Shown here piece after piece: positions 52,730-61,952 of a DNA stretch of 64,000 bases. The stretch lies in assembly GCF_020906275.1 (NCBI RefSeq), contig NZ_CP086727.1, forward strand, positions 3,341,001-3,405,000, given 5' to 3'. Origin of the DNA: Parasphingorhabdus litoris DSM 22379. GTDB taxonomy: Bacteria > Pseudomonadota > Alphaproteobacteria > Sphingomonadales > Sphingomonadaceae. Both the position numbers and the translations under genes were made by a program. Below the pieces are notes generated by a model, which saw nothing but the letters and a program-made list of their open reading frames with translations, did not search any database and was not told where the DNA came from. Each line of letters opens with the position of its first letter. Positions within the stretch are counted from its first letter, which is position 1.

Positions 52730-54019
52730 TCAAGCTGCCGCTTTGGAACTGGGTCGGCCTGCAAGATCATATAGACTTTTGTTACGGCCATTTGCCTTTG
52801 CCTGATAAAGAAGCTTGTCAGCACGAATAAGAGCACTTTTGAGGCTCTCTTCTGGGCGTAATTCGATAATTCCCATACTTGCGGTAACGTTCTGGATCAG
52901 CCCAGGGACCAATGCTCGTGCCGTTTTATTTATTGACTGACGCATATCTTCTGCCATTTCTTCAAAAGAATGATGCGTAAATAGTATAACGAATTCCTCT
53001 CCGCCCAATCGTGCCGAGAAACTGTGATCTCTGAATTCATCTCGCTGAAGCGCGGCGGAAACTGATACCAACACCTGATCCCCTCGCTCATGGCCTTCGC
53101 GGTCATTGATTTTCTTGAAATTGTCCAAATCAAGGGCAGCCAATCCGACAATTGGTTCTTTGGCGGGATCATTGAACCTTGAGGTCAATGCACGGCGATT
53201 CGGGAGCTTTGTCAGTGGGTCAGTAAGGGCCGCTTTGGCCATCGCAATCTTTTCGCTACGTGCAATGTCTCGCTGCCTCTTTAAATGCATGAAACGATAA
53301 GCAACGCCTACGGATGAAACTATTACTTCGACAATAACCGCCGCAAATAGCAGCATAAAGAAACCCGGCAACGGAGCTTGAAAGAGTATATTGTAAATCA
53401 GGCTCGCACTCGAAACCACAATTACGCCTGCCCATGCCAAAATCTGGAATTTGACAGCCCTACTTCCGCGCCTAAACGCCTGAACCAAAGCAATATTCAA
53501 AATGATAAGAACCGAGATCAAAGGTATTGCGCGCAATGCAACAAACGTCGGGTTGCTGATCACCCAATAAGCCAATGGAGTGAATGCCAATGTGAACGGC
53601 ATAGACCAGCCCAACAGCTTGTATATCTTCGGGCTAAGCATGCCTGGTTCAAGATAGGAGCGAAGGAAAGGACCTGATATTGAAATTGCCAAATCAAAAA
53701 ACAGGAAAAACATCAGCAATCGTGGAAAAGAATCGATGGGTAGTAACGGGCTAATAGCTAGGGGCGCCAACATGATTGTCAGCATAACCGTGCAAAAACC
53801 GCGAGCCCCGTGCCAGAGTAAAAAGCGTTCCCGTAAGACCGGGAAAAAAGCTGCGTTGTAGATTATCGGAAGCAAGATCATCCCGATAAAGATACCGGTT
53901 AGCACGCCACTCCACTGCATATCCGGTAAGCCGATCTCCGCCCGCTCGCTTGCGCCTGCGCTAGCGATCGGTGCAACAGCGGCGCAGACAAATGGATACA
54001 AATCAAAGCCTTCCCACAA
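52730..54019 (-). CDS. Membrane-bound GGDEF diguanylate cyclase
   Basis: This 429-residue protein has about seven membrane segments (residues ~35-235), resembling the 7TMR-DISM sensor, and then a coiled linker (FMHLKRQRDIARSEKIAMAKAALTDPLTKLPNRRAL in parts) and a GGDEF domain with active-site LGGEEFVIL and DLDNFKKINDREGHERGD. It makes c-di-GMP. No I-site RxxD is obvious before GGEEF. The only start is TTG at 54019; the frame continues a few codons upstream without ATG, and the usual extracellular DISMED2 domain is missing, so the 5' end may be truncated. Confidence 0.85.
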   Translation of the reverse strand: MWEGFDLYPFVCAAVAPIASAGASERAEIGLPDMQWSGVLTGIFIGMILLPIIYNAAFFPVLRERFLLWHGARGFCTVMLTIMLAPLAISPLLPIDSFPRLLMFFLFFDLAISISGPFLRSYLEPGMLSPKIYKLLGWSMPFTLAFTPLAYWVISNPTFVALRAIPLISVLIILNIALVQAFRRGSRAVKFQILAWAGVIVVSSASLIYNILFQAPLPGFFMLLFAAVIVEVIVSSVGVAYRFMHLKRQRDIARSEKIAMAKAALTDPLTKLPNRRALTSRFNDPAKEPIVGLAALDLDNFKKINDREGHERGDQVLVSVSAALQRDEFRDHSFSARLGGEEFVILFTHHSFEEMAEDMRQSINKTARALVPGLIQNVTASMGIIELRPEESLKSALIRADKLLYQAKANGRNKSLYDLAGRPSSKAAA

Positions 54020-54224: not shown

Positions 54225-55343
54225 TTAAACTTGTTGGCTGATACCATCCAAACCCTCAATGTTAGTGTCAGCAAACTTGTTTTGGACAAAGGCCAGCATG
54301 TCACGCAGCTCGGTTTCCTCGAGATCGCGGAGGATGAAGACGATCCGCGAACGCCGGTCTTCGCTGGGCCAATCTTCGAGGATCTCAGGCGGGTGCCAGA
54401 TATGTTGTACGCCGTGAATAACAATAGGTTTGTCCAGTTCGGCGAGGTTGATGATACCTTTGACGCGCAGCACGTTGACGCCGTTGAATGTCACCAGCAT
54501 TTCCAGCCAGCTATCGAATATCTTAGCGGGAAGAGGAGTGTCTATGGTGAGACAAACCGAGCGGATGCGGTCATCGTGGCGGTTAACGTCATGAACATGG
54601 TCGTGATCATGATCATGATGGTGCTCGTCATGGCCGTGATGATGGTGGTGATGATGTTCTTCCTCATAGGCTTCGGCCGCCAGCCATTTTTGAACGTCAT
54701 GGTGCTTTAGTTCTGGGTTGAAGGCAGGGCCTTCAAATAATTGTTCCAGATTTTTGCCGTCGCTGGGCAACAGCTGGATTGGCGCTGCAGGGTTCAGGTC
54801 GCGTACGCGCGCTTTCAGGCTCGAAACTGCATCGGCGGTTGCGATATCTGTTTTGGAGATCAGCAGCTGATCTGCAACAGCAACCTGCTTCATCGCCTCG
54901 ATTTGCGCATCCAGCGTATCATATCCATTATGGCCATCGACCAGAGCAAGAACCGCATCCAGCCGATAAAGCGCCTTCAACTTGTCGTCCGCCATCACCG
55001 TATGAATGATAGGCGCCGGATCAGCCAAACCGGTGGTCTCAATGAATATGCGGTCAAACCAGCGCTCACCAGCGCGGGCAAAACGCCAAGGCGCTTCACG
55101 CAGCGTCTTCTGAAGATCTCCCTTTATGGTGCAGCAAAGACAACCATTGGCCATTTCCACGATCGTATCATCTTCATTGCTGTGCGCCACCAGGTCATGA
55201 TCGATGCCGATCGATCCAAACTCATTGATAATGACCAAAGCCTTGGCCATTTGCGGCATTGGCATGAGCTGGTTCAACAAGGTTGTCTTGCCGGAACCCA
55301 GAAACCCGGTGAGAACCGTGACAGGAATGCGGCCATCAGGCAT
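54225..55343 (-). CDS. COG0523-family GTPase, putative zinc metallochaperone
   Basis: This 372-residue G3E GTPase has Walker A GFLGSGKTTLLN, the family metal motif GCLCCTIKGDL (CxCC) and a guanine-specificity segment (SKTDIA). A His/Asp-rich loop at ~226-251 (EEEHHHHHHHGHDEHHHDHD) could hold several zinc ions. The C-terminal CobW_C domain carries VLRVKGIINLAELDKPIVIHGVQ. COG0523 proteins near Zur deliver zinc to client enzymes under scarcity. It follows the DUF1826 gene by 6 bp, downstream of a Zur-box-like site at 55988-56005. Confidence 0.93.
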   Translation of the reverse strand: MPDGRIPVTVLTGFLGSGKTTLLNQLMPMPQMAKALVIINEFGSIGIDHDLVAHSNEDDTIVEMANGCLCCTIKGDLQKTLREAPWRFARAGERWFDRIFIETTGLADPAPIIHTVMADDKLKALYRLDAVLALVDGHNGYDTLDAQIEAMKQVAVADQLLISKTDIATADAVSSLKARVRDLNPAAPIQLLPSDGKNLEQLFEGPAFNPELKHHDVQKWLAAEAYEEEHHHHHHHGHDEHHHDHDHDHVHDVNRHDDRIRSVCLTIDTPLPAKIFDSWLEMLVTFNGVNVLRVKGIINLAELDKPIVIHGVQHIWHPPEILEDWPSEDRRSRIVFILRDLEETELRDMLAFVQNKFADTNIEGLDGISQQV

Positions 55344-55349
55344 AGCAGA

Positions 55350-55967
55350 TCAGCCTTCCGCTGGGTTTAAAACCAGCAAAAGCCGCTTTTCTCCGGTGCC
55401 CTCAATCGGCGGGGACCGGTGGATGACCGGTTGGTTAGTCTTAAGCTTTCCCTTGAACAAGCCAACATCACCAGGTTCCAGTTCATTAATATGCAGCGGC
55501 TCCAGGCCATCCGCAATGCGGTCAGTATCATTTTGATCGACCCACTGTGTGCCGCGTCCGATATAGGTGGTGATCAGGCGCATCTCGACATAGTCGCTGT
55601 GGAACTTCCAACAGGAATTGCCGGTTACCAATTCAATCCGAACTTCAATTTTTGGATGTGGGATCATTTCTCCAAACAGCTGGCACAGATCCATGATATC
55701 TTCGGCCAAACACGCGCGCGCTACAGATTTAGGAAAGCCACATCGGTCCAGTTCGCGCTGCAACAATTTTTCCGGATTGCCACTGGGCACTCTTACGCGC
55801 ACATTTTCAAGATCGATGTTCAGCAGGCTGCTGCAATCAATGGTCTTTGACCGTTTCCAGACGGCCAGATTGCAACTCTTGTCCAAAATTCGTTGCAATA
55901 CGGCTGGTTCGCATCCGACAATTTGTTTTGCGGTTTCGCTTGGGGAAGAAACGATCAAATCGTTCAT
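55350..55967 (-). CDS. DUF1826 protein of the zinc locus
   Basis: This 205-residue protein has the region CWKFHSDYVEMRLITTYIGRGTQWVDQ, which I associate with DUF1826; the HxD pair and a later His (PVIHRSPPIEGTGEKRLLLVL) resemble a cupin-like metal site, but no activity is known. DUF1826 genes are repeatedly found beside COG0523 GTPases in zinc-responsive loci. It is the first gene of the leftward pair, 20 bp from the Zur-box-like site, and is divergent from the MerC-like gene. Confidence 0.82.
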   Translation of the reverse strand: MNDLIVSSPSETAKQIVGCEPAVLQRILDKSCNLAVWKRSKTIDCSSLLNIDLENVRVRVPSGNPEKLLQRELDRCGFPKSVARACLAEDIMDLCQLFGEMIPHPKIEVRIELVTGNSCWKFHSDYVEMRLITTYIGRGTQWVDQNDTDRIADGLEPLHINELEPGDVGLFKGKLKTNQPVIHRSPPIEGTGEKRLLLVLNPAEG

Positions 55968-55987
55968 TGCTATTTTGGCTCCGGATT

Positions 55988-56005
55988 GTTATGATATGTT
56001 ATTAC
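55988..56005. promoter_or_regulatory. Zur-box-like site 1 (divergent DUF1826 / MerC promoters)
   Basis: GTTATGATATGTTATTAC aligns with site 3 (GTAATGATATAACATTAC on its reverse strand). The extended TGATATGTTATTACATCA is palindromic. It sits between two divergent starts (55967 leftward, 56037 rightward) and could repress the GTPase pair and the MerC/Zur pair together. Confidence 0.75.
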
Positions 56006-56036
56006 ATCACATTAATGACTAAATTTGCAAAGTTCA

Positions 56037-56426
56037 ATGAAGAAAACCCGCCTTTTTCAAGCTGTGCCGGCAGCCGACCGATGGGGAATAATTCTCTCTG
56101 CCCTCTGTCTTGCCCACTGCCTCATATTGCCGCCGTTTTTGGCTATGATGCCGTTTCTGATGCTAGAACCTTTGCCAGACTGGATGCACGACACTGAACT
56201 GGTGCATGCTGCGCTTCTGTTACCGGTATTGCTTGTAAGTGGACCGGCCCTTTTCAGGGGAGGATCGATCGACCATCGGATATGGGCCTTTGGAGCAATG
56301 GCTTTCGCGCTGCTTTGCGCAGCCTTACTGATGCACTCTGAACAACTGGAAAAACTAGTATCGGTGTTTGGCGCGGTTCTGCTGGTGATCGCACATCTGC
56401 TTAACATGCGAAAAAGGGGTGTTTGA
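56037..56426 (+). CDS. MerC-family membrane protein
   Basis: This 129-residue protein has four predicted membrane segments and the MerC-like Cys pair CLAHCLILPPFLAMMP in the first one. MerC proteins are mercuric ion uptake proteins of mer operons, but here there is no other mer gene, and its neighbours are zinc genes, so a zinc-related transport role is likelier (inference). The ATG at 56037 is chosen over a TTG at 56025 just before it. The stop overlaps the regulator start by 4 nt. Confidence 0.82.
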   Translation: MKKTRLFQAVPAADRWGIILSALCLAHCLILPPFLAMMPFLMLEPLPDWMHDTELVHAALLLPVLLVSGPALFRGGSIDHRIWAFGAMAFALLCAALLMHSEQLEKLVSVFGAVLLVIAHLLNMRKRGV

Positions 56427-56836
56427 TGGCACCCAAAAGTGCATCAAGGCAAAGACGATGCCCAAATGAGATTGAAGCAATTATTGAAGATATCGTTTGT
56501 GCCGCAGATGAGCCGGTCGGCGCTTATGACATTGCGAAAATAGCTGCCAAACAAAAATGCTCCATGTCGCCTGCACAAGTCTATCGCGGTCTCAACAGGT
56601 TGGCAGAAACAGGGAGTGTGGAGCGATTCGCATCATGGAACGCCTTTGTTGCCAGCAATGGCGAAAGACGTGTGCATCTGTTTTACGAAACTTGCAAAAA
56701 CCATGATTGGGCGGAAAAACATTCCGTTCACTTGCAGCTCCAGTCCCTGTGCGACCGGTTGGGATTCAGGGCAAATTCAAACCATGTCGAATTGAACGGA
56801 CGGTGCGCTTCCTGTAATACTAGACAACCATCTTAG
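56423..56836 (+). CDS. Fur-family regulator, Zur-like, with reduced metal ligands
   Basis: This 137-residue protein has a Fur-type winged helix (AYDIAKIAAKQKCSMSPAQVYRGLNRLAETGSVERF) and a small C-terminal dimerisation domain ending GRCASCN, like the C-terminal CxxC of Zur. Compared from memory with E. coli Zur, one Cys of the structural CxxC pair is Tyr (LFYETCKNH), and most regulatory-site residues (His after VYRAL..., Cys, His) are not at the expected positions. His-rich NHDWAEKHSVHL may compensate. It is coupled to the MerC-like gene and flanked by Zur-box-like sites. Confidence 0.82.
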   Translation: MMAPKSASRQRRCPNEIEAIIEDIVCAADEPVGAYDIAKIAAKQKCSMSPAQVYRGLNRLAETGSVERFASWNAFVASNGERRVHLFYETCKNHDWAEKHSVHLQLQSLCDRLGFRANSNHVELNGRCASCNTRQPS

Positions 56837-56853
56837 TTGTGATATAACATTAC
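56836..56853. promoter_or_regulatory. Zur-box-like site 2 (small protein / ABC operon)
   Basis: GTTGTGATATAACATTAC matches site 3's reverse strand at 16 of 18 positions. It begins within the last codon of the Fur-like gene and lies 18 bp before the ATG of the acidic secreted protein, so it probably controls the four-gene unit up to 59749. Confidence 0.75.
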
Positions 56854-56871
56854 ACCCAACGGAGATTCTGT

Positions 56872-57174
56872 ATGCGCGCTGTAATTTGTTTTCTGGCAAT
56901 GTTGACCATCACCCAACCGGCCTTTGCCTGTGCAATGGACGGCATGTACGGCGCACATCGCTTCAGCCCGTTTCAGGGAATGCAGTTGGGGATGGGCGTT
57001 GATCTGACGAACCAATCATCTGACTATGCGGACAACGATAATGCTCGTTCCTACCGTGATGATGATGCTGATGAACCCGATATGCAGCAGGACAGTGCGG
57101 AAATCGATCCCGATGAACCTGATGAAGAGCGCGACATAGCAAAACTTGATCCAGACGATCTCCCGCGACATTAG
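56872..57174 (+). CDS. Small acidic secreted protein of the zinc operon
   Basis: This 100-residue protein has a signal peptide (MRAVICFLAMLTITQPAFA, cut before CAMDG) and then a short region with Met/His (MDGMYGAHRFSPFQGMQLGMG). The C-terminal half is dominated by Asp and Glu (DDDADEPDMQQDSAEIDPDEPDEERD in parts) and is probably disordered. Such a tail could bind metal weakly in the periplasm, or serve as a partner for the ABC module. No family is recognised. It is the first gene after the Zur-box-like site 2, following a GGAGATT ribosome site. Confidence 0.65.
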   Translation: MRAVICFLAMLTITQPAFACAMDGMYGAHRFSPFQGMQLGMGVDLTNQSSDYADNDNARSYRDDDADEPDMQQDSAEIDPDEPDEERDIAKLDPDDLPRH

Positions 57175-57230
57175 GGTCAAAATCGATATGAGCAGGTATT
57201 CCGGTAAATCGGACCGGGTTCGGTGCAATC

Positions 57231-57890
57231 ATGCAGCTGGTCGTTGATAATGTTTCAAAATCCTATGGGGCCAATCCTGCGGTCTTAAATGGCGTGTCCA
57301 TGTCCCTCCTCGAAGGGGAACAGGCTTTGCTGCTGGGACCTTCGGGATCTGGAAAATCCACTCTTCTCAATATTATTTGCGGGCTGCAACGGCCGGACAA
57401 GGGCCGGGTTGTCATCGGCGAACAAGTGATCTCATCTCCGGAGTCAAAATCGACGGGAGATGAGGTGCGACGTACATCTCTCGGTATCGTTTTTCAGACA
57501 TTGCGATTGGTTTCCGCCTTGTCGCTGCGTGCCAATTTGGAGCTGGCACAGAAGCTTCAAAAGGGCCGGGTTGATCGTGATCTCATCGATCAATGCCTCG
57601 ACAGGCTGGCAATTGCAGACCGTGCTGATGCGCGGCCATTCGAGCTCAGCCAGGGCGAAGCACAGCGTGCCGCCATTGCCCGGGCTGTCGTCGTGTCTCC
57701 CCAGCTGCTGATTGCTGATGAACCCACATCTGCACTCGACAGCGGCAATACCGAGCGAGTGGCTGAACTGTTGATTGAAATGGCTAAAAGTGTCGGGGCT
57801 GGACTCTTGATTGCCACACATGACGAACGGCTCGGTCGCTTCTTCTCTAAAAGCTTCGCGCTCAATCAGGGCGAGATAAACCCATGCTGA
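57231..57890 (+). CDS. ABC transporter ATPase (LolD/MacB-like) of the zinc operon
   Basis: This 219-residue ATP-binding subunit has Walker A GPSGSGKST, Q-loop FQTLRLV, signature LSQGEAQRAAIARA (in place of LSGGQ), Walker B LLIADEPTSALDS and the H-loop THDE. The size and sequence style are those of the LolD/FtsE/MacB group, which works with FtsX-type permeases rather than classic znuC-type importers. It overlaps the permease gene by 7 nt, so the pair is one unit. Confidence 0.92.
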   Translation: MQLVVDNVSKSYGANPAVLNGVSMSLLEGEQALLLGPSGSGKSTLLNIICGLQRPDKGRVVIGEQVISSPESKSTGDEVRRTSLGIVFQTLRLVSALSLRANLELAQKLQKGRVDRDLIDQCLDRLAIADRADARPFELSQGEAQRAAIARAVVVSPQLLIADEPTSALDSGNTERVAELLIEMAKSVGAGLLIATHDERLGRFFSKSFALNQGEINPC

Positions 57891-59212
57891 GCCTTGCCTT
57901 CGCCTATTTGCGGGATCGGCCGCTAACGACGATCCTCAATATCCTGCTGCTGGCCATATCGGTCGCGATGCTGGTCTTGCTGCTGCAATTTGGTTCGCAG
58001 TTCGAAAAGCGTTTTCAAAAAGATGCGGAAGGGATCGACCTTGTGGTTGGTTCCAAGGGTTCTCCGCTGCAGCTTATCCTCTCAAGCGTCTTTCACATTG
58101 ATCAACCGACCGGCAACATCCCGCTCAGCAGTCTCGAACTGCTGCGCAATGATCCGGCAACGGCGCGCGTAATTCCCCTCGCGCTTGGTGACAATTTTCA
58201 AGGATACCGGATTGTTGGTACAGACGAATCCTTCGCAGAATTACACCAGGCCGAACTCGCTCAAGGGGCGATGTTCGATGCGCCATTGCAAGCGGTGATG
58301 GGCGCTAGTGTGGCGTCCCAGACCGGCGCCAATCTCGGCCAGAAATTTATCGGCAGCCATGGTCTGACAGAAGATGATGAATCTGATACAGGCCATGATC
58401 ATGCTCCCTTTGAAACAGTTGGGATATTGGCACCGACGGGAACCGTGATTGACCGGTTGATCCTGACTTCGGTGGAGAGTTTTTGGGATGTTCATGGAAT
58501 AGAACACGATCATACGCATGATGGTGAGAACAGTCATGATCATGAAGAGGGTCACAACCATGAAGGCGAAGCCGGCCATGATCATGGCGACGAACATGAC
58601 CATGATCATGAAACGGAGGCAACTCAGACTACATCGCAGCTACAAGACAGGCGGGCGCAGCTGGAACCGGAGCTGACCGCTTTACTGGTTTCTTACAGCA
58701 ACGCGTCCGGCGCCATCCGCATTCCTGCGATGATCAACCGCCAGACTGAAATGCAAGCTGCGGTACCAGCTGTCGAGACCGCGCGCCTTTTGAATTTGCT
58801 GGGGGTCAGCTTTGAAGGCGCCCGCGTCTTTGCCTGGCTGCTCGCTTGTATTGGTGGACTGGCGATCTTTGTTGCGCTCTTTTCCATGGCACGCAGCCGG
58901 GAGGGCGACCTCGCCTTGCTTCGCGTTATGGGAGCAACGCGGCCACAATTATTCGGTACGATCCTGCTCGAAGGGCTTTTCACGGCCCTGGCGGGCGCTG
59001 TGCTGGGCTGGTTTCTTGCGCATGGCTTTTTGACGGCGGCCAGAAACAGTTTTGACACCATGCGCGATCTTGGTTTGACGGCCTGGCAGCCAGTGTCTCA
59101 GGAAGGGTTCATTATTCTCGCGGTATTGTTAATTGGGATTATCGCTGCGGTCATTCCGGCCCTGCGCGTTATGCGGGTGGATCCGGCTGCGATATTGGCG
59201 CGCGCCAGTTAG
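57884..59212 (+). CDS. FtsX-like permease with His-rich periplasmic loop
   Basis: This 442-residue MacB/FtsX-type permease has one N-terminal membrane segment, a large periplasmic domain (~40-310), then three segments (AWLLACIGGLAIFVALFSMA; FTALAGAVLGWFLAHG; FIILAVLLIGIIAAVIPA). Two His-rich stretches lie in the periplasmic domain: TGHDHAPFE (~170) and, at ~206-244, a run rich in HDH/HNH (e.g. HDHGDEHDHDHETEA). These suggest zinc sensing or binding by the permease itself. Together with the ATPase and DUF3299, it resembles the Vibrio cholerae zrg-type zinc loci as I recall them. Confidence 0.88.
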   Translation: MLSLAFAYLRDRPLTTILNILLLAISVAMLVLLLQFGSQFEKRFQKDAEGIDLVVGSKGSPLQLILSSVFHIDQPTGNIPLSSLELLRNDPATARVIPLALGDNFQGYRIVGTDESFAELHQAELAQGAMFDAPLQAVMGASVASQTGANLGQKFIGSHGLTEDDESDTGHDHAPFETVGILAPTGTVIDRLILTSVESFWDVHGIEHDHTHDGENSHDHEEGHNHEGEAGHDHGDEHDHDHETEATQTTSQLQDRRAQLEPELTALLVSYSNASGAIRIPAMINRQTEMQAAVPAVETARLLNLLGVSFEGARVFAWLLACIGGLAIFVALFSMARSREGDLALLRVMGATRPQLFGTILLEGLFTALAGAVLGWFLAHGFLTAARNSFDTMRDLGLTAWQPVSQEGFIILAVLLIGIIAAVIPALRVMRVDPAAILARAS

Positions 59213-59233
59213 CTATTCTGGAAGGAATTGATT

Positions 59234-59749
59234 ATGAAGATGGTTGGACAGATGATCAAAATTAGCTTTGCCGCCTTGATTTGCACGGCGCCACTATCCG
59301 GCACTGCGACGCAAGCCGCCATGCAAGATGGCGGGAAAGCCCCGATAGAAGATATCTGGAAACCCGCCGCCACACCGAAGGGCGGTGTATCGTGGAAAAC
59401 CCTGGAAGCGACCGGCGAGAAAACACGCAAGGACAAGCAAGGTTATATCCGGTCAAAACCGATTTTCACTCCCCGGGTGAAAGAGCTTGCTGGCAAACGC
59501 ATCAAGGTTGCCGGCTGGATGATGCCGTTACAAAACTCCGCTACGCAAAAGAATTTCGTATTGCTGGCTTATCCTCCAGGCTGCCCTTTCCACTTCCATG
59601 CTGCCCCGAACCAATTCATTGAAATCTATTCTGACGTTGGTTTTCCAACCAACGAGCAAAAAATGCATGTGATCAGCGGTGTTCTCGAGTTGACGGGGCA
59701 GGATGAAAGCGGGATTTTTTATCGCCTTCGAAAAGCGCGCCCCGGCTAG
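59234..59749 (+). CDS. DUF3299 secreted protein of the zinc operon
   Basis: This 171-residue protein starts at ATG 59234 after GGAAGGAA. Its signal-peptide-like N-terminus (MKMVGQMIKISFAALICTAPLSGTATQA) is followed by a DUF3299-like core: IFTPRVKELAGKRIKVAGWMMPLQ, LAYPPGCPFHFHAAPNQFIEIY, and a C-terminal beta segment (VISGVLELTGQDESGIFYRL). The CPFHFH cluster is a plausible metal site. It ends the rightward zinc unit and converges on the TonB receptor gene 20 bp away. Biochemical role unknown. Confidence 0.83.
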   Translation: MKMVGQMIKISFAALICTAPLSGTATQAAMQDGGKAPIEDIWKPAATPKGGVSWKTLEATGEKTRKDKQGYIRSKPIFTPRVKELAGKRIKVAGWMMPLQNSATQKNFVLLAYPPGCPFHFHAAPNQFIEIYSDVGFPTNEQKMHVISGVLELTGQDESGIFYRLRKARPG

Positions 59750-59769
59750 GGCAATATCCTCGGCACTAA

Positions 59770-61917
59770 TTAAAAGCTGATCCGGGCGGAGACTTTGATA
59801 TTTCGGCCCGGCAGCGGCACAAAATCCTTGGTAAAACTGGCATGACGCCGGGCATCGCTATCAAAAATATTATCCGCCGATACGATCAGGATATGCTCGC
59901 TATCTTCGCCAAATGGATTCCACGATAGTGACGCATTTACCAATGTGTGACCGTCAGTTGGTAACTCAAATTCCGTTGTTCGGTTTTGGCTGTCGACCCA
60001 TTCCACTTCCATACGGCCGCCGAACGGACCGCTGGTAGCTTCAACACCGCCCAATAATCGCAGAGGCGGAATGCGGGGCGCTGGCCCATCATCCTCGATT
60101 GTCGCCCGGACATAATCCGCAACGGCATCGACCGTCACGGTCAAACCATCCATCTGTACGACATCCACCGCAACCTGCGCTTCGAGCCCCCAATATCGGG
60201 CATCAGATTGTAAGAACTGAAAAATCGGCAAGCCATCGGCCTCGCCGCCCGTTTCAACTTCGTAGATAAAATCGTCAAACCAGTTGTGATAGGCGGCCAG
60301 TTGAAAGCGGGCAGGACCACTTGATCCACGCAAATAGGCTTCCAACCCCCAAGCTACTTCCTTGTCGAAAAAGGGATTGCCGATTTCAAACGCCTGTGTG
60401 GCTACGTGCGGTCCGTTGGAGAACAGCTCTTCCGCAGAAGGTGCGCGTTCGACCCGGCTGACGTTGAGCCCAATGCGAACGTCAGGTGCCAGGCGATAAT
60501 TTGCCCCCGCCGCCACAGAGAAGGCATCGAAATTCCGGTCGATAGCGGTGATGACCGCCGCTTCCTCCAGTCCGATGGCGACACTGTCCGACCGCACATC
60601 CGTCTTTTCATAGCGCGCCGAAAATTCGAGCCCAACCTTATCCCATTCAAATTCCTGTAGCGTAAACAGGCCATATTGGTCGGTCACATTAGGTGGTACA
60701 AAGGCCTCGGCCCCTATTGCTATAAAGTCTCGGGTTGAAGCCTGAAAACCAGTAACACCGCGCCAGCCATTGCGATCCGCCTGTACAAATTCCAGACGGG
60801 CCTCAAACCCCTCACTGTCGAAAACGGTGCCAACCTCATCGCCCTCAAATTCAATATGCTCATAATTGGAATAGCCTGCGCGAAAGCGGACGGATTCCAA
60901 GAACCCACCGCCTGTGAATATTTCTCCGCGCAAGTCAGCCCGCCACTGTCGCAGGTCGATAGATACAGGTGCTTCTTCCTCTTCACCTTCTCCCTCTTCA
61001 GCGCCTTCCTCGCCATGATGATGTTCCGCGCCGGGACGCGCTGGAATACCATAGCGTGTATCATAATAACCAATGGAAGCGCCAAGGCTGCCGCGGTCAT
61101 TGATCAGCGCAAAACCGGCACCGAAAGTATAGGTTTCCGTGAAACTGTTCGGCAATTGATCCCGCAGACCTGCCAGTTCGCGAGCTTCGGCCGCCTCATC
61201 CAGATTTCCCTCCTCTTGTTCTTCGGCAGCAATCTCCAGCTGCTCTGCACGCAGCGCAGGGGTCAGCACAAAACCACCGACCTCCAGGTCTTCCGTCTCG
61301 CGATAGCTGCCGTCGACATGAACTACCACCTGGTCACTCAATGCCAGTTCGAAGGCACCGCCAATGCTATTTTCGTCAAACGCGCTGGCGTAGCTGCCAA
61401 TAACATCGACATGGTAGCCATTTTCCGGGATTACGCGCGGGATACGGCGATCACGTGCGTTGACCGCACCGCCAATTGCCTGACTTCCGAACAGGAGTGC
61501 AGCTGGACCCCGGAATATTTCGATTCGCTCGGTAGTAAGTGGATCAATCGTGACCGCGTGATCCGCCGACGTATTGGAAACGTCGAGCGTTCCAATCCCA
61601 TCGGTCAAAACCCGAACCCTTTCTCCTTGCAAACCGCGCAGCACTGGCCGTGATGCACCAGGCCCGAATGATGTCGCCGAAACACCCGGTTCGCTGGTGA
61701 GAACATCACCCAGCTGCGGCTGCAACTTCCGCAGAATATCATCCCCGACGATCACGGAAGTTCCCGCCAGAATATCCAGTTCGCTGACATAATCGGCAGT
61801 CACGATGATGGCTTCGTTGTCAGAACCATGTATCGGATCGCGATCTGCTTCGGCCGCAGTTTCAGCCAATGCGGGAACTGATAGCAATCCGCACATGATT
61901 ATAACCGTTTGCTTCAT
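59770..61917 (-). CDS. TonB-dependent receptor (ZnuD-like zinc receptor)
   Basis: This 715-residue outer-membrane receptor has a signal peptide (MKQTVIIMCGLLSVPALA). The plug domain (~40-150) has GPGASRPVLRGLQGERVRVLTDGIGTLDVSNTSADHA and IEIFRGPAALLFGSQAIGGAVN. The 22-strand barrel ends with ARISF (terminal Phe). An extracellular loop at ~296-317 is rich in His and Glu (AEHHHGEEGAEEGEGEEEE), as in zinc receptors. A strong palindromic Zur-box-like site lies 17 bp upstream. TonB/ExbBD are not in this window. Confidence 0.92.
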   Translation of the reverse strand: MKQTVIIMCGLLSVPALAETAAEADRDPIHGSDNEAIIVTADYVSELDILAGTSVIVGDDILRKLQPQLGDVLTSEPGVSATSFGPGASRPVLRGLQGERVRVLTDGIGTLDVSNTSADHAVTIDPLTTERIEIFRGPAALLFGSQAIGGAVNARDRRIPRVIPENGYHVDVIGSYASAFDENSIGGAFELALSDQVVVHVDGSYRETEDLEVGGFVLTPALRAEQLEIAAEEQEEGNLDEAAEARELAGLRDQLPNSFTETYTFGAGFALINDRGSLGASIGYYDTRYGIPARPGAEHHHGEEGAEEGEGEEEEAPVSIDLRQWRADLRGEIFTGGGFLESVRFRAGYSNYEHIEFEGDEVGTVFDSEGFEARLEFVQADRNGWRGVTGFQASTRDFIAIGAEAFVPPNVTDQYGLFTLQEFEWDKVGLEFSARYEKTDVRSDSVAIGLEEAAVITAIDRNFDAFSVAAGANYRLAPDVRIGLNVSRVERAPSAEELFSNGPHVATQAFEIGNPFFDKEVAWGLEAYLRGSSGPARFQLAAYHNWFDDFIYEVETGGEADGLPIFQFLQSDARYWGLEAQVAVDVVQMDGLTVTVDAVADYVRATIEDDGPAPRIPPLRLLGGVEATSGPFGGRMEVEWVDSQNRTTEFELPTDGHTLVNASLSWNPFGEDSEHILIVSADNIFDSDARRHASFTKDFVPLPGRNIKVSARISF

Positions 61918-61934
61918 AAAGAAATTCCGTTAAT

Positions 61935-61952
61935 GTAATGTTATATCATTAC
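61935..61952. promoter_or_regulatory. Zur-box-like site 3 (TonB receptor)
   Basis: GTAATGTTATATCATTAC is nearly palindromic (arms GTAATG/CATTAC exact, core TTATAT). It is 17 bp upstream of the TonB receptor start and is the best of the three copies. Its match to sites 1 and 2 links the receptor to the regulator next to them. Confidence 0.8.

Follow-up and report, generated by a model that had tools for sequence, protein, structure and literature searches.

A predicted Zur-controlled zinc locus of Parasphingorhabdus litoris with a Zrg transporter core and no detectable ZrgA

What does an ATP-binding cassette (ABC) pair of the LolD/FtsX type do in a zinc locus, when no substrate-binding protein comes with it? 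The question is raised by positions 54225–61952 of the window, by which we mean the whole stretch of 64,000 nucleotides analysed here (positions 3,341,001 to 3,405,000 of contig NZ_CP086727.1, in the closed 3.61-Mb genome of Parasphingorhabdus litoris DSM 22379). An earlier sequence-only reading had described nine genes in this cluster and taken the ABC pair, together with the adjoining DUF3299 gene, for an undescribed module in a Zur-controlled zinc locus. All nine genes were found in place in the open reading frame (ORF) list and by Pfam (Table 1). The reading is supported in that this is probably a Zur-type zinc locus, and it was right that a binding protein, at least of the ZnuA or ZrgA type, is missing; the ABC pair with DUF3299, however, is the known Zrg core. 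On balance, and with moderate confidence, we take the cluster to be a Zur-repressed zinc-acquisition set that uses a Zrg transporter lacking ZrgA.

A Zrg core and its missing receptor

By sequence comparison, the ATPase, the permease and the DUF3299 protein are the counterparts of Vibrio ZrgC, ZrgB and ZrgE and of Pseudomonas PA4064–PA4066. For the ATPase and the permease this was judged against the Pseudomonas homologues. The permease aligned over its full length with Pseudomonas (30% identity) and Flavobacterium (37–38%) homologues, and its nearest named relatives were Parasphingorhabdus proteins at 81–83% identity. The best NCBIfam matches of the ATPase were FtsE and LolD, both below cut-off. 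The DUF3299 profile matched the structure of PA4066 (4hsp, 155 bits), which also came first by fold search; the model of the protein was weak outside its core, with a mean predicted local distance difference test score (pLDDT) of 66. The three genes stood together in the window and in all 24 fetched sphingomonad relatives. In a few of these relatives the DUF3299 gene lay on the opposite strand, and the locus of one, L124 (genome G007), was broken: genes that look transposase-like by eye separate its small secreted ORF from the ATPase gene, and its permease is split across frames.

ZrgA (DUF2796, PF10986) is needed for Zrg function in V. cholerae (PMC9820375). We found no PF10986 match in the P. 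litoris genome, although all 11 ZrgA-type control genomes were positive. The ZnuA (PF01297) and ABC-3 (PF00950) families likewise gave no match, with controls positive in 11 and 13, respectively, of 14 named genomes. The earlier claim that a substrate-binding protein is missing is thus borne out for the ZnuA and ZrgA types. The absence of ZnuA is not special to this genome, because only 5 of 199 genomes of the window's family carry it. ZIP transporters gave no match either; NRAMP, Pit and others were not searched for. We also tried the COG0523 protein as a ZrgA and rejected it: it scored 23.1 bits to the ZrgA profile, below cut-off, and the match covered its His-rich stretch.

We wondered what stands in for ZrgA. 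Directly after His204, the permease of the window carries a His-rich stretch in its periplasmic part. A permease profile search of 398 Pseudomonadota genomes found homologues in 96 of them at E 1e-30 or better, and 97 loci were examined. ZrgA alone was present in 63 loci (a class that includes three with ZrgA just outside the 5-kb limit), a His-rich permease alone in 22, neither in 12 and both in none. In permeases with ZrgA nearby, no stretch of 40 residues held more than 5 His; the His-rich permeases, all at loci without ZrgA, had 6–19. The threshold of six His per 40 residues was set after the data had been seen; a cut-free rank test agreed with the exclusion (p 2.6e-11), kinship being corrected in neither test. 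Since 12 of the 97 loci have neither feature, the exchange is not a universal rule. In the window's family the permease occurred in 25 of 199 genomes; all 25 were without a ZrgA match, and 23 reached the His-rich cut. Among 35 His-type genomes of the two main clades, none had a ZrgA match.

A permease tree of 110 rows, built with the His-rich columns excluded (the His-rich L240 and L244 were left out as too short), placed the window-type permeases in a clade of 26 rows (19 His-rich, 7 neither, no ZrgA), separate from a ZrgA-type clade of 73 rows (65 ZrgA, 3 neither, 5 His-rich). The five His-rich rows of the latter (L197, L219, L230, L248 and L250) stood among ZrgA rows, at forks with Shimodaira–Hasegawa-like approximate likelihood ratio test (SH-aLRT) values of 86 to 96. 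To judge from this branching, it looks like the receptor has been exchanged repeatedly across the permease tree. The 110 rows, which also serve for the conservation counts below, include 11 of the 24 sphingomonad relatives and six loci of a contig scan that was biased, a His-rich peptide being among its patterns; the loci of that scan lie outside the 97-locus count. A distant clade of ten rows (L241–L243, L245–L247, L249, L251–L253) kept the three histidines described next, and seven of its members were His-rich; eight had no DUF3299 gene nearby, and none had the tested zinc-linked neighbours. At another locus (L227, genome G285, contig C305), a ZrgB-like permease with neither ZrgA nor a His-rich loop was preceded on its own strand, at a distance of about 0.7 kb, by a ZnuA-family match; the ZnuA-like protein is possibly a third kind of receptor for a Zrg permease.

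The permease itself offers a putative metal site. His159, His171 and His204, all in its periplasmic part, were each conserved in 109 of 110 homologues, with ZrgA present or not. The exceptions were L214 (two positions) and L066 (one position). Asp52, Asp103 and Asp190 were kept in 109–110 of the 110. From this conservation, the three histidines are a candidate zinc site. The model of the permease (pLDDT 81.8) shows the type VII fold, with Foldseek matches to LolE, MacB and HrtB and a further match to Streptococcus 5xu1; the His-rich stretch is disordered in the model, with residues 209–259 below pLDDT 50.

A second periplasmic candidate precedes the ATPase gene. The small acidic protein belongs to an unnamed family of small secreted proteins with the predicted mature N-terminus C-x-x-[HDE]-G; the window's member would begin C-A-M-D-G, at Cys20. 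Alignment of 14 members, of which three are near-copies of the window protein, showed A19, C20 and G27 to be invariant and the downstream parts to diverge. A profile search found 64 relatives, a few of them named from sphingomonads, and none with a Pfam domain. We then counted signal-peptide-like stretches that end in A-x-A (or similar) and are followed by C-x-x-[HDEN]-[GA] ahead of the ATPase gene, using a pattern written after the members had been seen and a pool that includes 62 loci of the biased contig scan. The pattern was found at 14 of 58 ZrgA-less loci; on the opposite strand 2 of the 58 had it, and none of 119 ZrgA-type loci did. Of the 14, 13 belong to the window's family. If the Cys is free at the N-terminus, its spacing of three residues to a His, Asp or Glu would suit metal binding well.

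Zur-type boxes and regulators

We asked whether the cluster is regulated as a zinc locus. The three palindromes of the sequence-only reading were recovered to the base. Because box 1 sits in a divergent promoter, the three boxes serve four units. A degenerate box pattern with up to 3 mismatches matched the window 11 times against 2.49 ± 1.67 expected, and none of 100 shuffles gave as many; 8 of the 11 match rows fell on the three boxes and 3 elsewhere in the window.

A genome scan with the receptor's box, a check suggested by the earlier reading, allowed up to 3 mismatches and gave 12 rows, which fall at 7 distinct places; a reversed-pattern control gave 1 row. Five of the 7 places precede metal-linked genes: the three boxes of the window, one before exbD and one before a MerC gene with a TonB receptor. 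The box at genome 2317230–2317247 has a perfect palindrome in its inner 16 bases. It stands about 40 bp upstream of exbD (PF02472, 77 bits), which suggests that the zinc response includes the supply of energy to TonB. The box in the region 3185225–3185593 precedes a second MerC gene (57 bits), followed by a same-strand gene for a TonB-dependent receptor, a possible two-membrane zinc route. The remaining two (41213 and 2292242), with 3 mismatches each, lie before genes named by eye as a fasciclin-like lipoprotein and a dehydrogenase-like gene; with no obvious zinc link downstream, they are likely chance matches. The predicted regulon thus reads as two TonB receptors, ExbD, two MerC proteins, COG0523, DUF1826, the Fur-like regulator and the ABC module.

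Related loci were scanned with a matrix made from the five boxes, in the 24 fetched sphingomonad relatives plus L160 and L176. In this set the scan gave 23 sites, some overlapping, and none in two mononucleotide shuffles per locus. Box-like sites were present in 11 of the 24; the other 13 had no site at the chosen cut. Eight relatives (L106, L107, L109, L110, L111, L112, L117 and L124) had at least one site just before a MerC, COG0523, DUF1826, FUR or small ORF, and in L106, L110, L111 and L124 such sites lay in divergent promoters next to MerC. The boxes of the window also resemble published Zur sites of Caulobacter and Vibrio. Zur control, as the sequence-only reading had predicted, is thus supported by the motif and the gene content, and in some relatives by box-like sites ahead of the corresponding genes, and is likely.

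Which protein would read the boxes? The genome has three FUR-family matches. The best solved relatives of the Fur-like protein of the locus were 7dh7 (Fur family) and 4mtd (zinc uptake regulation protein). We take 7dh7 to be a Zur of Xanthomonas; it was matched at 72.8 bits by a Zur-like protein encoded at about 170 kb (genome 170332–171508), versus 37.1 for the protein of the window. The 170-kb protein is the more canonical of the two. A third MerC gene lies beside it, and no box was listed at this site when the genome was scanned at up to 3 mismatches. In the window protein a Tyr replaces the first Cys of the first CxxC, a Cys kept in the 170-kb protein and in five aligned locus-encoded relatives; the locus-encoded group is also without a short His/Cys-bearing stretch of the 170-kb protein. 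Given these residues, the Fur-like protein of the locus might respond to another signal or work together with the second Zur.

Of the products of the genes behind box 1, the COG0523 protein is a candidate zinc metallochaperone and MerC an inner-membrane protein. Directly beside the cluster, at 52730–54019, lies a 7TM-DISM receptor with a GGDEF domain, for which no link to zinc was seen.

Table 1. Features of the cluster, in positions of the window.
Feature	Position	Strand	Evidence or remark
COG0523/CobW-type GTPase with His-rich stretch	54225–55343	-	PF02492 161 bits, PF07683 77 bits
DUF1826 protein	55350–55967	-	PF08856 139 bits
Zur-type box 1	55988–56005		divergent promoter, DUF1826-COG0523 versus MerC-FUR
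MerC-family inner-membrane protein	56025–56426	+	PF03203 66 bits
Divergent Fur/Zur-family regulator	56423–56836	+	PF01475 26.8 bits
Zur-type box 2	56836–56853		18 bp upstream of small secreted ORF; heads the zrg-like run
Small secreted acidic protein, 100 aa	56872–57174	+	no Pfam match
zrgC-like ABC ATPase (LolD/FtsE type)	57231–57890	+	PF00005 110 bits
zrgB-like permease, type VII (MacB/LolCE/FtsX) fold	57884–59212	+	PF12704, PF02687
Permease His159 codon	58358–58360	+	conserved in 109/110 homologues
Permease His171 codon	58394–58396	+	conserved in 109/110 homologues
Permease His204 codon	58493–58495	+	conserved in 109/110 homologues
His-rich disordered periplasmic loop of permease, about residues 205–255	58496–58648	+	13 His in richest 40 residues
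zrgE-like DUF3299 secreted protein, OB-like fold	59228–59749	+	PF11736 31 bits
DUF3299 Cys117 codon (numbered from ATG 59234)	59582–59584	+	Cys in 95/95 aligned DUF3299 rows
ZnuD-like TonB-dependent receptor	59770–61917	-	best NCBIfam match ZnuD, 389 bits; cut-off 950
Zur-type box 3	61935–61952		17 bp upstream of ZnuD-like receptor

Importer, exporter or hand-over

Taken together, these results suggest that the cluster is the main part of a small Zur-type regulon for zinc starvation. Low zinc would lift the repression at the boxes. ZnuD and the second TonB receptor, powered with the box-headed ExbD, would then carry zinc through the outer membrane into the periplasm. Capture there, the task of ZrgA in other systems, would fall to the permease's own His-rich loop and probably also to the small Cys-x-x-[HDE]-G protein, and the captured zinc would be held at the site of His159, His171 and His204. 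ATP hydrolysis by the LolD-like subunit would drive its release. The account is weakest on where the released zinc goes: it may either pass through the permease or go to another inner-membrane protein such as MerC.

A bolder form of this proposal, which we offer tentatively and hold to be doubtful as a whole, is that a MacB-fold ABC system is a true zinc importer with its receptor built into the permease. The His-rich loop, with the family of proteins bearing an N-terminal Cys, would capture zinc, the three-histidine site would hold it, and the metal would move inward. In some bacteria that have no ZnuABC, such a system would be a principal importer dedicated to zinc, and its receptor would be exchangeable across Pseudomonadota: ZrgA, the permease loop or, in one locus, perhaps a ZnuA-like protein. 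In line with the zinc-acquisition reading in general, across 80 genomes ZnuA was present in 5 of 35 His-type genomes, 2 of 10 with neither feature and 26 of 35 ZrgA-type genomes (these 35 chosen from 63), a comparison confounded by kinship; outside the window's family, 3 of 11 His-type genomes had it.

Several observations speak against import by the transporter or against the loop as its receptor. The permease fold matches exporters and mechanotransmitters (MacB, LolCDE, HrtBA, FtsEX), with no importer among the matches listed. No case of import by a protein of the MacB type is known to us. This permease is also missing from most of the window's family, two genomes of its own genus included, and so is ZnuA, so that these kin manage with other zinc routes. 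A tree-aware pair test of the exclusion found 3 pairs on supported branches, too few to decide. ZrgA proteins had 3 to 19 His in 40 residues (60 measured); not every ZrgA is therefore His-rich, and V. cholerae ZrgA can do without its His-rich loop (PMC9820375), so that such a loop need not be a working receptor. Finally, in P. aeruginosa a PA4065 mutation left cell zinc unchanged, and the role assigned to the operon was the export of pyochelin-cobalt (PMC11481552).

The last point leads to the opposite view, in which the ABC pair would act as an exporter or extractor of the MacB type, moving a metallophore, metal complex or protein outward upon zinc starvation. We consider this unlikely, even though the type VII fold of the permease and the genetics and metal contents reported for PA4064–PA4065 with pyochelin-cobalt (PMC11481552) favour it. 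Three near-invariant histidines and His-rich loops would point to a bare metal rather than an organic ligand. Moreover, none of the ten proteins of the cluster that were scanned looked MacA-like, a result that covers the cluster and not the rest of the genome. Vibrio zrg mutants, in turn, are less fit without zinc in a znuA background: zrgA removal in a znuA mutant of V. cholerae lowered survival without zinc about 100-fold (PMC9820375). The zinc-acquisition reading also draws on Zrg in Vibrio, which is described as zinc- and Zur-regulated and as supporting growth without zinc (PMC9820375, PMC9817125); the V. parahaemolyticus zrg operon is 76- to 206-fold up without zinc (PMC9817125).

A further alternative gives the inner-membrane step to MerC: MerC would be the real zinc importer, and the ABC-DUF3299 module would only mobilise or load periplasmic zinc, by mechanotransmission, for MerC or the envelope. 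Because all three MerC matches of the genome are linked to Zur-type sites or genes (behind box 1, behind the box with the TonB receptor and beside the 170-kb Zur-like gene), hand-over to MerC is a serious alternative; type VII relatives that were found are not importers, which also suits it. Of 25 sphingomonad loci, 9 had a MerC gene no more than 6 kb from the permease, as had 8 of 63 ZrgA-type loci, but the other 16 and 55 loci had none nearby, and the Zrg accounts from Vibrio and Pseudomonas, in the parts at hand, mention no MerC partner. As the full explanation, we judge it rather improbable. It is very improbable that the boxes are read by another metal regulator (for Mn or Fe) or that the local Fur-like protein is no zinc sensor, as its Tyr for the first CxxC Cys and its missing His/Cys-bearing stretch might suggest. 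The boxes resemble Caulobacter and Vibrio Zur sites, and ZnuD-like, COG0523, DUF1826 and Zrg genes stand behind them. The best solved relatives of the local protein include a zinc uptake regulation protein, and a more canonical Zur-like protein is encoded at 170 kb.

The two published views of the Zrg core, zinc importer in Vibrio and metallophore exporter in Pseudomonas, clash. The ZrgA-less build and the small protein make this dispute testable. A strain with the Zrg core and no detectable ZrgA, ZnuABC or ZIP removes confounding partners, and the three conserved histidines of the permease offer point mutants that separate the two views. The small secreted protein family and MerC are added Zur-linked genes worth attention.

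Comparison with known systems

How does the cluster relate to the zinc systems already described? Identity with a znuABC-type system was dropped: ZnuABC and the other cluster A-I systems are also Zur-controlled zinc ABC systems, but their permease and binding-protein families are different and have no match here. The systems named ZniCBA are different again, that of Cupriavidus being an RND efflux system and that of Rhizobium having a binding protein of the cluster A-I type. ZnuGHI of Caulobacter crescentus is, like the cluster, an alphaproteobacterial Zur-repressed ABC system beside a TonB receptor (PMC4176598). We did not equate the two, since ZnuGHI is annotated as ABC-2 type with two permeases, a distinction made by description and not by sequence. 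In the literature searched, which covered few subscription papers, we met no title or abstract opening, among the entries listed, that dealt with a Zrg system lacking ZrgA or with a role of MerC in zinc uptake.

The type VII ABC proteins MacB, LolCDE, HrtBA, FtsEX and BceAB share the permease fold. They differ in that LolF has Leu and Pro opposite His159 and His171 (in the one alignment that spans this part, weak at 10 bits) and in the zinc-related gene content and boxes of the present cluster. In P. aeruginosa PA4063–PA4066, PA4064, PA4065 and PA4066 correspond to the ATPase, the permease and the DUF3299 protein, and the genes are Zur-regulated (PMC11481552, PMC4542158, PMC8561739); there, however, PA4063 (ZrgA) is present, and the role argued for is pyochelin-cobalt export.

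Vibrio ZrgABCDE has the same ATPase, the same permease with four transmembrane segments and a large periplasmic domain, the same DUF3299 protein (ZrgE), a Zur-type box upstream and a zinc-starvation context. Its ZrgD (DUF2607) is missing in two Vibrionaceae (PMC9817125). The P. litoris cluster differs in that the genome has no ZrgA match and the permease has a His-rich stretch instead, in that a small secreted C-x-x-[HDE]-G protein precedes the ATPase, and in that ZnuABC has no match in the genome. Thus, the ABC module was already known; the ZrgA-less build and the small secreted protein are new.

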